Origin: Thermoplasmata archaeon
Lineage (GTDB): Archaea > Thermoplasmatota > Thermoplasmata > Thermoplasmatales > Thermoplasmataceae
Reading direction: 5' to 3'
DNA: 5,679 bases
Assembly: GCA_021806345.1 (NCBI GenBank)
Contig: JAJZXP010000182.1
Coordinates: 1 to 5,679 of the forward strand
Shown here: positions 3,109-5,445 of the stretch, piece after piece
How the letters are laid out: each line of letters starts with the position of its first letter
How positions within the stretch are numbered: position 1 is the stretch's first letter
Notes under the pieces: model-generated
Databases searched by the model: none
What the model was told of the DNA's origin: nothing
Seen by the model: the letters and a program-made list of their open reading frames with translations, nothing else
Translations under genes and position numbers: made by a program

Positions 3109-3345
3109 ATGGTCGATAAAAAAGAAACAGTAAATGAATCCACTGTGATAGGATTGGAATTTATGGTAGTGCGACTCAATGAAATGGTTGATGAAATTCA
3201 TGCATGGAATAGGCTATTGAAATATCACACAGGACAGCAAAAGAAGCACACCATCGGAACTCAGAAGGGAAGTTATCGCTATAATCCGAAAACAAAAAAG
3301 CTGGAAAGGTTAGACGAAGAAGGCAATCTTATAAAGAGCTATTAG
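3109..3345 (+). CDS. 78-residue protein of unknown function, amphipathic helix plus basic tail
   Basis: I choose ATG 3109 rather than the TTG at 3073, because a TATA-like element lies between them at the right distance for a near-leaderless mRNA and the first residues then read as a normal hydrophilic start (MVDKKETVNES). Residues about 12-40 form an amphipathic helix (VIGLEFMVVRLNEMVDEIHAW) that could dimerise. A basic, Gln/Lys-rich turn follows (GQQKKHTIGTQKG), then a short hairpin-like end (YRYNPKTKKLERLDEEGNLIKSY region, about 56-78). No known family is recognised. It points toward the repeat cluster at 3431-3705, which starts 85 bases after its stop. A small DNA-binding or regulatory role would suit its size, but this is a guess. 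Confidence 0.65.
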   Translation: MVDKKETVNESTVIGLEFMVVRLNEMVDEIHAWNRLLKYHTGQQKKHTIGTQKGSYRYNPKTKKLERLDEEGNLIKSY

Positions 3346-3360
3346 TAAGGTACATCTTAC
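3345..3360 (+). terminator. Small inverted repeat at the stop of the 78-residue gene
   Basis: GTAAG (3345-3349) and CTTAC (3356-3360) are perfect 5-bp arms around six bases, starting at the last base of the TAG stop. A short hairpin here may mark the mRNA 3' end. No strong T tract follows, so support is weak. Confidence 0.25.
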
Positions 3361-3430
3361 AAACATAGGAAACTACGGTACTTCTAAAATATGGATATGT
3401 TCATGAGATAGTGTAATTAGGTCAAATTGA

Positions 3431-3705
3431 GAAAACAGGATAAAACAGGAAGGAAAAAGATACACATTTCCTGTTTTCGAATTACTGATTTTTTCCCTTT
3501 TATCCCGTATTTATTTTTAGATGAACCTACAAACGGGAGAAACTGGAAAAAAATTTTGAGAATCTTCAAAATTTTCAATTCAGTGAAATGGGTATTAGAT
3601 TCAATTATAGCCTTCCTGTTTGCTCGGTTTGCTCACGGACCCTTAAAAATAAGGTAAAAATCAGTGATCAATGTCTTCCTGTTTCTATCCTGTTTGCACT
3701 GTTTG
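3431..3705. repeat. Iteron-like cluster of AAACAGGA repeats, candidate replication origin
   Basis: The convergent gap between the 78-residue gene and the ATPase gene holds six exact copies of AAACAGGA or its complement: plus orientation at 3433-3440 and 3443-3450 (10 bases apart), minus at 3469-3476, 3614-3621, 3677-3684 and 3688-3695. A degenerate copy (CTGTTTG) sits at 3699-3705. The 11-mer AAACAGGAAGG is identical at 3443-3453 (+) and 3611-3621 (-). GAAAACAGGA (3431-3440) pairs with TCCTGTTTTC (3469-3478) as a perfect 10-bp inverted repeat. Two repeat groups flank an AT-rich stretch (about 3480-3600) with a dyad. Also present are a tandem TTTGCTC (3619-3625, 3628-3634) and a hairpin CCTTA/TAAGG (3641-3654). 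By my estimate an 8-mer should occur about 0.01 times in this span by chance. The layout resembles iteron origins; a large operator is the alternative. A 76-codon frame starting with TTG at 3427 is judged spurious. Confidence 0.65.
3550..3575. repeat. AT-rich 10-bp dyad inside the repeat cluster
   Basis: AAAATTTTGA (3550-3559) and TCAAAATTTT (3566-3575) form a perfect inverted repeat with a six-base spacer. TTTCA (3573-3577) and TGAAA (3584-3588) add a second overlapping short dyad. It lies between the two groups of AAACAGGA repeats in the most AT-rich part of the gap, where a duplex-unwinding element would be expected if this is an origin. It could also be the site of a dimeric DNA-binding protein. 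Confidence 0.5.
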
Positions 3706-3721
3706 TAAGTCTTGGTGTTGT

Positions 3722-5227
3722 TTAAGATAACATAAAAGAGTGAATTTTCCCTTCGTTCTTCAGTCTGTTCAATTCATTTTCAATTTGTTCATAACTGATC
3801 ACATCGGAAGGAAACAACAATCTTTTCGTTTTCCCTCTGTCTGGCTTAACATTAACGATTATTATCTTGTCCAGGTCAGATAATTTCTTGTAAATGGATT
3901 CCAAATTATCGTATTTTGTTGCTTCGTATATTGAGGTGTGCAACGAACCGAGTTTTCCAGATTTCTTTCTTGAGGCAAAGTTCGACTTTATTAACTCAAG
4001 CACTCGGTTATGTTTTTCATCCACTGATCTCAATGATTCTTCCAGCTTCTTGAGCTCATCAATATATCCTTTTGTCGTCTCCTTTACAAGTTCAATTGCC
4101 TGATCCAAGTGTTTTGGTTCAACAGTCCATTCTCCCTCAGCCAAAGCAAAATTTATGGCTATCCTGTTTAACAGATGGGGATCTTCGAATGGGTATGAAA
4201 ATGAATCCTCTTTAGACACCCTATTAACTGCTTCATGTCGTATTTGCTCCAGCCTTTTCAGAATTTCATTGTCAAAGTGAAGCTCAACAAGCGTAAATCC
4301 CGGGACTGCCGTAGGCGTTCCCTCACCATTGTCTATAATGTTGAAAGTCAATCCAGACTGTATTATCAGTTCTGCAAGGGTTATGAGCCTCCTTGTGAAA
4401 ACTTCTTTGAATATCTGAAAAAGCTGATTAGCTTTTGGCCTGTAAGCTATTGAATCATCCACCATATCATGTGATCTCAAACTCACATCCCAGCATCTTC
4501 TTGCTAATCCTATTCTTAAAAAGTTTCCATTAAGCTCACCGGGGTGCATTGTTGCTATCATCGTAGCATAATATCCTGCTTCAATCTTCATTCCCTTTGA
4601 CGGATCCTTCAGTGATTGGGTAAATCTCTTGCCATCATACACTTGCAGGAGAAGGGTCGTTCTGCCTGCATCATATTTTCCTGAATTCTCCATCTTGATT
4701 AGCGTATAGAATTCATCAACACTGTAGTGTGCGAATCTCTTGTTTTCAAAGACTTTTATCAGGCCTTCAATGCTTCCATCAAAAGTCAGCGACTCGTTTT
4801 CATGTATTACTGGCATTGATTTCAGAGTTCCCTCCACATCCTTTGTAATGTCATCGCACAGTTGCATCAATGAAGTCTTATGAAAGAAATCGGGCCTCGC
4901 AGATAGGATGAGAAATATGTTTGGTCTCGGTTTTGTTATTTCAAGTCCTTTCACTTCAAAGTAAGAACCCAACACCCTCGATATTGTTGTCAGAACCACT
5001 GGCATGAGCGCAAGTTGACTATATCCAGCGCATCGGGCCCAGTGATGGACGAATTCTTTGAGATTAAGTTCATGCACCCTTTTGTCTACAGATTCCGAAT
5101 CTAACCAGATGGGTGTTATATACTGCTCTGCTTCATCCAGTATCACATCTTTTTCATCCGCAATCTCAATTACTGGCACTTCCACACGATTTATATTGTT
5201 GTTTTCTATATTTTCCATTAAGATCAC
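3722..5227 (-). CDS. DUF3987-like P-loop ATPase, probable replication or maintenance protein
   Basis: A 501-residue protein, probably a diverged member of the DUF3987/primase-helicase-like ATPases of plasmids and viruses (inference from motif order). A variable N terminus is followed by a helical lead-in (about 55-95). The P-loop position, after KPRPNIFLILSA (99-110), reads RPDFFHKTS (111-119): Lys and Thr/Ser remain, but both glycines are replaced (P112, H116). A Walker B-like strand, RFAHYSVDEF, has D171-E172. ATMIATMHPGEL (221-232) and FLRIGLARR (236-244) occupy sensor and arginine positions. A helical region (about 350-405) leads to a probable winged-helix C terminus (about 405-500). I prefer the GTG start at 5227, because AGGAG lies six bases before it; ATG 5218 is the alternative. 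It is downstream of the AbrB-like gene, ends 17 bases from the repeat cluster, and has a paralogue at the right edge. Whether it hydrolyses ATP is uncertain. Confidence 0.65.
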   Translation of the reverse strand: MILMENIENNNINRVEVPVIEIADEKDVILDEAEQYITPIWLDSESVDKRVHELNLKEFVHHWARCAGYSQLALMPVVLTTISRVLGSYFEVKGLEITKPRPNIFLILSARPDFFHKTSLMQLCDDITKDVEGTLKSMPVIHENESLTFDGSIEGLIKVFENKRFAHYSVDEFYTLIKMENSGKYDAGRTTLLLQVYDGKRFTQSLKDPSKGMKIEAGYYATMIATMHPGELNGNFLRIGLARRCWDVSLRSHDMVDDSIAYRPKANQLFQIFKEVFTRRLITLAELIIQSGLTFNIIDNGEGTPTAVPGFTLVELHFDNEILKRLEQIRHEAVNRVSKEDSFSYPFEDPHLLNRIAINFALAEGEWTVEPKHLDQAIELVKETTKGYIDELKKLEESLRSVDEKHNRVLELIKSNFASRKKSGKLGSLHTSIYEATKYDNLESIYKKLSDLDKIIIVNVKPDRGKTKRLLFPSDVISYEQIENELNRLKNEGKIHSFMLS

Positions 5228-5232
5228 TACCT

Positions 5233-5254
5233 GCTCCTGTTTACCGACAGGGGC
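5233..5254 (-). promoter_or_regulatory. Hairpin covering the ATPase ribosome binding site
   Basis: Between the AbrB-like gene and the ATPase, CCTGT (5236-5240) and ACAGG (5247-5251) pair around six bases. Two more pairs (5234/5253 and 5233/5254) follow one mismatch on the mRNA strand. The stem buries the AGGAG, so it could limit translation of the ATPase unless ribosomes arrive from the upstream gene or a protein melts it. Confidence 0.35.
5234..5238 (-). promoter_or_regulatory. Ribosome binding site deciding the GTG start of the ATPase
   Basis: AGGAG on the minus strand is six bases before GTG 5227-5225, ideal spacing. For the ATG at 5218 only AGG at 5232-5230 is available, 11 bases away. 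The AGGAG is part of a further AAACAGGA copy (5235-5242) like those in the cluster at 3431-3705. Confidence 0.55.
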
Positions 5255-5262
5255 TCATTTTT

Positions 5263-5445
5263 TCAATCTGATTTATTATTTTTAGGGTATTTGATAAACA
5301 ATCCATTTCCAAGATCTTCAAGTTCTACGTAATCGCCTATCTCTATGTCATGAAGTCTGGTTATCCATTTTGGGATGATCAGATTGCAAGTTCTGTATTT
5401 CCGTGCACCCTGTCCATAGAGTTTTCTTTTTATTACATCTGGCAT
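5263..5445 (-). CDS. AbrB/SpoVT-type swapped-hairpin DNA-binding protein
   Basis: A 60-residue protein with the AbrB-like pattern. A basic start (MPDVIKRKLYGQGARKYRT) is followed by a strand and turn, CNLIIPKWITRL, then HDIEIGDYVELED and a last strand GLFIKYP. The order hydrophobic strand-IPK-helix-x-IxxGDxVxxE is typical of AbrB, MazE and SpoVT dimers, in which two chains form an interlaced barrel that binds DNA. In this family such proteins are transition-state regulators or antitoxins. No toxin is visible next to it; the next gene, 35 bases downstream, is the ATPase. The ATG (5445) lacks a ribosome binding site but has a TATA element about 26 bases upstream, shared with the divergent gene at 5494, so it may autoregulate both directions. 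Domain confidence is high; the role is inferred. Confidence 0.8.
   Translation of the reverse strand: MPDVIKRKLYGQGARKYRTCNLIIPKWITRLHDIEIGDYVELEDLGNGLFIKYPKNNKSD

Follow-up and report, generated by a model that had tools for sequence, protein, structure and literature searches.

In bacterial iteron plasmids (initiators RepE, pi and TrfA), copies of a short word lie near the initiator gene, with helical-turn pairs and an adjoining AT-rich stretch (PMC4980987, available text). Archaeal origins of the Orc1/Cdc6 type place an AT-rich intergenic region with repeats, the origin recognition boxes (ORB), next to the initiator gene (PMC4010727; PMC3177234; accessible parts), and such origins have been proposed for the Thermoplasmatales plasmids pTA1 and pPO1 (PMC3177234). 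In the Sulfolobus plasmid pRN1, a required non-coding element of the origin lies 3' of the replication gene, ORF904; the replication protein has a winged-helix domain, and a small repressor is encoded in the same operon (PMC4234260, accessible parts). MCM or MCM-like replication proteins are present in some members of the pT26-2 plasmid family, whose origins were predicted from skew and repeats (PMC6972569), and DUF3987 is a predicted helicase that replaces MCM, RepA or DnaB in primase proteins of mobile elements (Kazlauskas et al. 2018, PMC5862659; both as far as the text is accessible). The stretch analyzed here, 5,679 bases of contig JAJZXP010000182.1 from a Thermoplasmata archaeon (assembly GCA_021806345.1; hereafter the window), harbors a cluster of the word AAACAGGA directly 3' of a gene for an ATPase of predicted MCM fold. 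The cluster probably supplies the recognition sites at which a small mobile element of archaea begins its replication, and the ATPase, encoded by a gene that ends 26 bases from the nearest copy, would be the initiator.

Repeat arrays 3' of the ATPase genes

Eight exact matches to AAACAGGA are present in the window, compared with a mean of 0.46 and a maximum of 3 in 200 dinucleotide shuffles. Six of them, in both orientations, lie within 263 bases of the 376-base gap that directly follows the ATPase gene; the other two start at 4162, within this gene, and at 5235, just upstream of it. Clustering was assessed by counting the copies of any 8-mer of at least three letters within 270 bases in 1000 first-order Markov shuffles of the window: six copies were never reached, five were reached once and four three times. 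Start-to-start distances between the clustered copies are 10, 26, 145, 63 and 11 bases, and the copies form two groups, one with the orientations +,+,- (copies 1 to 3 in Table 1) and the other -,-,- (copies 4 to 6). The preliminary description of this DNA had reported six exact copies in a cluster in both orientations, with helical-turn spacing within pairs; both statements hold, the paired boxes being spaced by 10 and 11 bases. Copies with one mismatch number 13 in the whole window, two of which are in the core.

The 3' flank of the window gene was compared with those of seven relatives (L178, L179, L180, L192, L193, L194 and L195), and the eight family genes span three archaeal phyla as inferred for the contigs: L179, L180 and L192 belong to Thermoplasmatota, L193 to the phylum of a Methanophagales metagenome-assembled genome (MAG), and L194 and L195 to that of a Lokiarchaeota MAG. 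Gap ends were set by open reading frame (ORF) cut-offs of 50-60 amino acids (aa), ignoring window ORFs of at most 76 aa and a 62-aa ORF of L193 that overlaps the ATPase gene on the opposite strand. The distance to the next ORF is then 376 bases in the window, 1156 in L179, 1047 in L180, 684 in L192, 428 in L193, 113 in L194 and 568 in L195. Strong arrays occur at the same place in three distant relatives, each with a word of its own: AAACAGGA is present six times in the gap of the window, AGATATTAAG five times in L179, ACATCTTAA seven times in L180 and CTTTTTTAAC seven times in L193. At k = 8, 9 and 10, none of 200 gap shuffles matched the top count in any of these four loci. A sliding scan blind to genes, which covered all but ∼1 kb of the G209 contig, ranked the arrays of the window, L179, L180 and L193 first on their own contigs (107, 158, 894 and 1211 scan windows, respectively). 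The nearest copy lies 4 bases from the gene end in L180, 33 in L179 and 0 in L193.

The genome G209, which contains L180, has 46 copies of ACATCTTAA compared with 73 of the reversed control, and outside the array no two copies are found within 4 kb; in this one distant relative the word is therefore not equally dense across the genome. The chance that the densest spot falls at most 400 bases 3' of the stop codon on the contigs of three relatives, taken as the product of three fractions, is ∼3 in a million. The window is excluded from this figure because it was chosen for its cluster, and the figure is a guide only because L179 and L180 are related and the three were found among seven relatives.

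The position of the arrays also bears on whether the boxes are operators, that is, repressor sites of the flanking genes with no role in replication. One copy, which is part of a short inverted repeat, does lie immediately 5' of the ATPase start; this copy is possibly a site of self-regulation, or just part of a ribosome-binding sequence. The cluster, however, is found at gene 3' ends, where a promoter is not expected, and the exact array words of L179, L180 and L193 are not found again immediately 5' of the ATPase genes concerned. A purely operator function is very improbable.

The candidate initiator and its family

The ATPase consists of 501 aa if translated from the GTG at 5227 and 498 aa from the ATG at 5218. 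A structure model built on 32 aligned sequences predicts an MCM-type AAA+ fold, with MCM proteins as the best fold matches starting at about residues 42-46, and a winged helix at the C-terminus; the replication-type ATPase noted earlier beside the cluster is thus recovered as a modelled MCM-fold protein. A first model from five sequences was rejected (predicted local distance difference test score 41.0, poor save for the C-terminal 100 residues, no fold match at E ≤ 0.001). None of the 32 aligned family members matches PF00493 or PF17207 at E ≤ 0.01, and hence they lack the Pfam signatures of the MCM motor and of the N-terminal oligonucleotide-binding (OB) domain. Among the 10 proteins of the 5.7-kb window and the 32 aligned ATPases, Pfam detects no Orc1/Cdc6, no Rep initiator of the RepE/pi type and no primase-polymerase or superfamily 3 (SF3) helicase. 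A single weak PHROG match to 'DNA primase' covers residues 151-210 (E 0.024). DUF3987 (PF13148) matches the window protein weakly, below the cut-off (E 0.23), and 11 of the 32 aligned members at E ≤ 0.01; the L195 protein scores 56.6 bits (cut-off 27), and those of L193 and L194 score 26.6 and 23.6.

The close relatives of the ATPase are four proteins (P0002-P0005; P0001 is the window's own) with 71-83% identity, the longest contig of each measuring 2.9-13.2 kb. A profile search that scored the 7995 candidates sharing most words returned no more of them. No relative turned up in the viral_contigs, genome_contigs, phages and plasmids collections; the other window proteins gave none in viral_contigs or plasmids, the wider ATPase family none in viral_contigs, and P0020 none in phages or plasmids. 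DUF3987 was found in none of three virus records. In genome searches, query A1 gave no match in 20 genomes, one weak match in 389 and none in 398. Query A2 matched 12 of 389 genomes, two strongly (four places) and ten weakly (E 3.4e-7 to 9.8e-4); five of the ten weak matches lie within open frames of more than 700 aa; two of the five were checked, and both are MCM. Within the order to which both strong genomes belong, A2 matched 2 of 52; further searches gave 0 of 300, 0 of 10, 1 of 186 and 2 of 185.

Architecture of the gap and neighboring genes

The cluster is flanked by a plus-strand 78-aa ORF (3109-3345) and by the 3' end of the minus-strand, 501-codon ATPase gene. The convergent arrangement given in the preliminary description is present, although the plus-strand partner is this short ORF, with no relative in viral_contigs and none above the cut-off in Pfam, PHROGs or NCBIfam. 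The ORFs within the gap are short (76, 53 and 45 aa), and the 76-aa ORF (3427-3657) has no Pfam match. Rfam gives no match in the window, and tRNA genes are absent from the window and five loci. A mini-ORB pattern with up to three mismatches matches four times, compared with 3.2 expected, and never in the gap; ORB words differ among lineages.

The outer AAACAGGA pairs are mirror-symmetric about 3563.5-3564, whereas the inner copies at 3469 and 3614, both on the minus strand, break the mirror arrangement. A single perfect inverted repeat with arms of at least 9 and a spacer of 3-12 bases exists in the window, AAAATTTTGA/TCAAAATTTT, and it is centered at 3562.5. The coincidence was noticed post hoc, and its chance is estimated at ∼1 in 100 for one such repeat in a 376-base gap. 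The lowest GC content of any 50-base stretch is 0.24 (3546-3595), compared with 0.33 in the gap and 0.37 in the window. Two groups around an AT-rich core had been described; the grouping stands, and the AT-richness of the core is only modest. The gap folds more stably than its shuffles, with z scores of -3.93 and -3.42; with the boxes masked the score is -0.97 (39 of 200 shuffles as good), and with the boxes fixed and the remainder shuffled it is -1.91 (5 of 200).

Several observations weigh against an origin recognized by the ATPase. L179 and L180 belong to the same order and have similar words, so that they are not fully independent. The 113-base gap of L194, from an Asgard phylum, has no array, and its contig has no strong cluster; L195 has three copies of CAACTAAGT; this site ranks first on its contig at k = 9, but of 200 shuffles 8 reached that count at k = 9 and 57 did so at k = 8. 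Strong arrays are thus present in two of the three phyla, and the members of the Lokiarchaeota phylum give no clear support. In L192 three-letter words form no array (at k = 8, 125 of 200 shuffles do equally well), and what is repeated there is just an 18-base AT word (0 of 200). In L178 the contig stops 138 bases beyond the gene. The Walker A motif of the ATPase appears atypical in our reading of the sequence, and the top Foldseek row of the poor first model was an Orc1/Cdc6 chain (E 0.18). A long stem-loop like that of pRN1 was considered for the gap and rejected; none is claimed because the fold signal comes mainly from the inverted boxes, being ordinary once they are masked, and because mirror symmetry, taken globally over 150 bases around 3564, does not stand out (2.1 standard deviations). 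The cumulative GC skew near 3600 is a local maximum, not a minimum, and its sign change at the cluster has a terminus-like rather than an origin-like direction; the gene strand also switches there and confounds the comparison. GC skew, suggested earlier as a check on the origin, is therefore uninformative to slightly unfavorable.

This skew, the AT-rich inverted repeat and the convergent ORFs (the next ORF is also convergent in L179, L193 and L195) could instead reflect a transcription-end region of convergent genes or a replication terminus, in which AT tracts and the inverted repeat mainly stop polymerases and the boxes are regulatory. Termination, however, does not need six exact 8-mer copies in both orientations, the box-masked gap folds ordinarily, and L180 has an array even though its next ORF of at least 60 aa is not convergent. 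Such a role is decidedly unlikely. Imperfect 23-base arms (3423-3445 and 3683-3705, 78% complementary) would suit a remnant miniature transposable element bounded by terminal inverted repeats. Inspection by eye shows no target-site duplication where the arms end. The spaced box pair in viral contigs yields 57 stretches, regarded as chance, none with more than three AAACAGGA per 300 bases, and in three relatives the same gene is followed by an array of a different word. A remnant of this kind is exceedingly improbable.

Table 1. Positions of the repeats, the gap and the genes discussed (window coordinates unless a locus is named)
Feature	Position	Strand	Basis or remark
Gap between convergent ORFs, holding the array; candidate origin region	3346..3721	.	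ORF map
Repeat copy 1, AAACAGGA	3433..3440	+	exact match
Repeat copy 2	3443..3450	+	10 bases past copy 1; inverted pair with copy 3, arms of 10
Repeat copy 3	3469..3476	-	exact match
One-mismatch copies AAACGGGA (3531) and AAACTGGA (3540), core	3531..3547	+	mismatch scan
AT-rich perfect inverted repeat AAAATTTTGA/TCAAAATTTT	3550..3575	.	center at most 1.5 bases from the mirror axis of the outer pairs
Repeat copy 4	3614..3621	-	exact match
Repeat copy 5	3677..3684	-	exact match
Repeat copy 6	3688..3695	-	11 bases from copy 5
MCM-fold AAA+ ATPase gene, C-terminal winged helix; proposed initiator/helicase	3722..5227	-	ORF, predicted model
Lone AAACAGGA copy within CCTGTcggtaaACAGG, directly upstream of the ATPase start	5235..5242	-	exact match; overlaps AGGAG
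Small AbrB/MazE-like DNA-binding protein, upstream of the ATPase	5263..5445	-	PF04014 E 0.0012, below Pfam cut-off
Phage-type integrase or serine resolvase genes near family ATPases	L198 6363-7499; L200 2222-3418; L196 5956-6582

Partition sites in small elements also contain clustered short repeats. The array could be such a centromere-like site, or an incompatibility site, bound by the small AbrB-like protein or by a 99-aa helix-turn-helix-like protein. The AbrB-like gene precedes the ATPase gene in the window and in L193 (1495-2884), where the two genes overlap in the same order and the AbrB/MazE match is above the Pfam cut-off (8e-10). A 118-aa ORF before the L195 ATPase has a weak ParB-family match, below the cut-off (E 0.072). 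The gene common to the family loci, however, is the ATPase gene, and the small upstream partner varies: it is AbrB-like in the window and L193, weakly SH3-like in L192 and L180, replaced by other small ORFs in L195 and by an AAA protein in L194. The scan of 10 window proteins also gave no match of the ParA type, and a partition or incompatibility site is an unlikely explanation of the array.

The wider surroundings look like a mobile-element replication setting because integrase or resolvase genes lie ∼1-3 kb from the ATPase gene in L198, L200 and L196, and because L194 has a neighbor resembling a clamp loader. In L194 (673-2829; Lokiarchaeota-phylum MAG) the ATPase gene directly follows an AAA gene (Pfam AAA 3.5e-8, Rad17 0.018) that we read as similar to replication factor C, the clamp loader. 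The family copy in L200 may be integrated in a chromosome, since a formylmethanofuran formyltransferase (FTR) gene lies ∼2.4 kb from the ATPase gene. A 47-kb contig of G209 (C16; L196 and L197) contains two paralogous ATPase genes ∼31 kb apart, one with a clear array and one without, and perhaps represents two nested or fused elements. Elsewhere in the window, a 160-aa protein with two CxxC pairs (1627-2109) weakly matches the PADLOC model of type IV Csf1 (E 0.00075), probably through a shared zinc finger, and positions 2-451 encode the C-terminal part of a secreted-looking protein rich in Asn, Ser, Thr and Tyr, with no Pfam, PHROG or NCBIfam match.

Proposed mechanism and comparison with known systems

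The candidate origin of the preliminary description gains support from element-specific arrays behind three distant family genes in two phyla, from the predicted MCM-fold, winged-helix neighbor and, by analogy, from the pRN1 precedent. We infer that the ATPase binds the array, assembles into a ring and melts the DNA, and that the region has origin activity. The element would be archaeal, since its relatives with known hosts are archaeal. In the proposed mechanism, the C-terminal winged helix would bind the AAACAGGA boxes, whose pairs are spaced by roughly a turn of the helix; this domain is the likeliest reader of the boxes because the ATPase gene is the component common to the arrays. The two box groups would collect protein on either side of the AT-rich inverted repeat, where the AAA+ modules would form a ring around melted DNA and then unwind it, with primase and polymerase of the host acting thereafter. 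The small upstream AbrB-like protein may regulate copy number. Co-evolution of initiator and origin would be expected to give box words that differ among elements, as they do.

More tentatively, the family may constitute an undescribed class of archaeal replicons, spread over two phyla or more, that would rely on one MCM-like ATPase as both origin-binding initiator and self-loading replicative helicase with no Orc1/Cdc6. Each gene would have its own box word at its 3' side, and protein and boxes would evolve as a matched, transferable cassette. If true, an array at the 3' end of such genes would allow initiator-origin pairs to be read directly from sequence, would supply defined test fragments and candidate vectors for archaea in which genetic tools are scarce, and would provide a means to ask whether an MCM-type ring picks its own start site without the Orc1/Cdc6 loader.

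In the accessible literature on MCM-like and iteron-like archaeal replicons, including the available text of PMC6972569, PMC6563490 and PMC4980987, such an arrangement is not reported, and no origin or DNA target for DUF3987 proteins was found; subscription journals were outside the scope of both searches. The link to the DUF3987 and DUF927 helicases of primase-encoding mobile elements and to the MCM-like helicase of SCCmec is that 11 of the 32 aligned family members match DUF3987; the window locus differs in that its ATPase stands alone, has a predicted winged helix and is followed by a repeat array on the 3' side. In the pT26-2 family, the accessible text of PMC6972569 does not tie origins to the 3' end of a gene, and kinship between its MCM-like group and the ATPase family of the window is not implied.

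Bacterial iteron plasmids share with the window the clustered copies of one word by an initiator gene, a role that is putative for the ATPase. Their iterons, however, are ∼17-22 bases long, whereas the words here have 8-10 bases and occur in both orientations; no Rep family is matched, and the window protein has its own predicted AAA+ motor. Orc1/Cdc6-ORB origins are similar in their AT-rich intergenic repeats next to a putative initiator gene. In contrast, the window has no Orc1/Cdc6 match, MCM as the best predicted fold, no excess of matches to the mini-ORB pattern over chance, and an array that lies 3' of the gene, not upstream.

The closest precedent is pRN1, which resembles the window locus in the winged helix, in a small, here putative, regulator encoded nearby and in the 3' position, relative to the replication gene, of an origin element for which the array is a candidate. 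ORF904, however, combines a primase-polymerase with an SF3 helicase, whereas the window has an MCM-fold ATPase, as modelled, with no primase match above the cut-off. The pRN1 origin is a stem-loop of ∼100 bases for which the available text of PMC4234260 describes no box array; here there is a repeat array, and the stem-loop signal is mostly that of the boxes. The comparison with relatives supports, short of proof, a candidate origin of a known kind, the repeat origin adjacent to its initiator gene, whose unusual part would be the MCM-like initiator.
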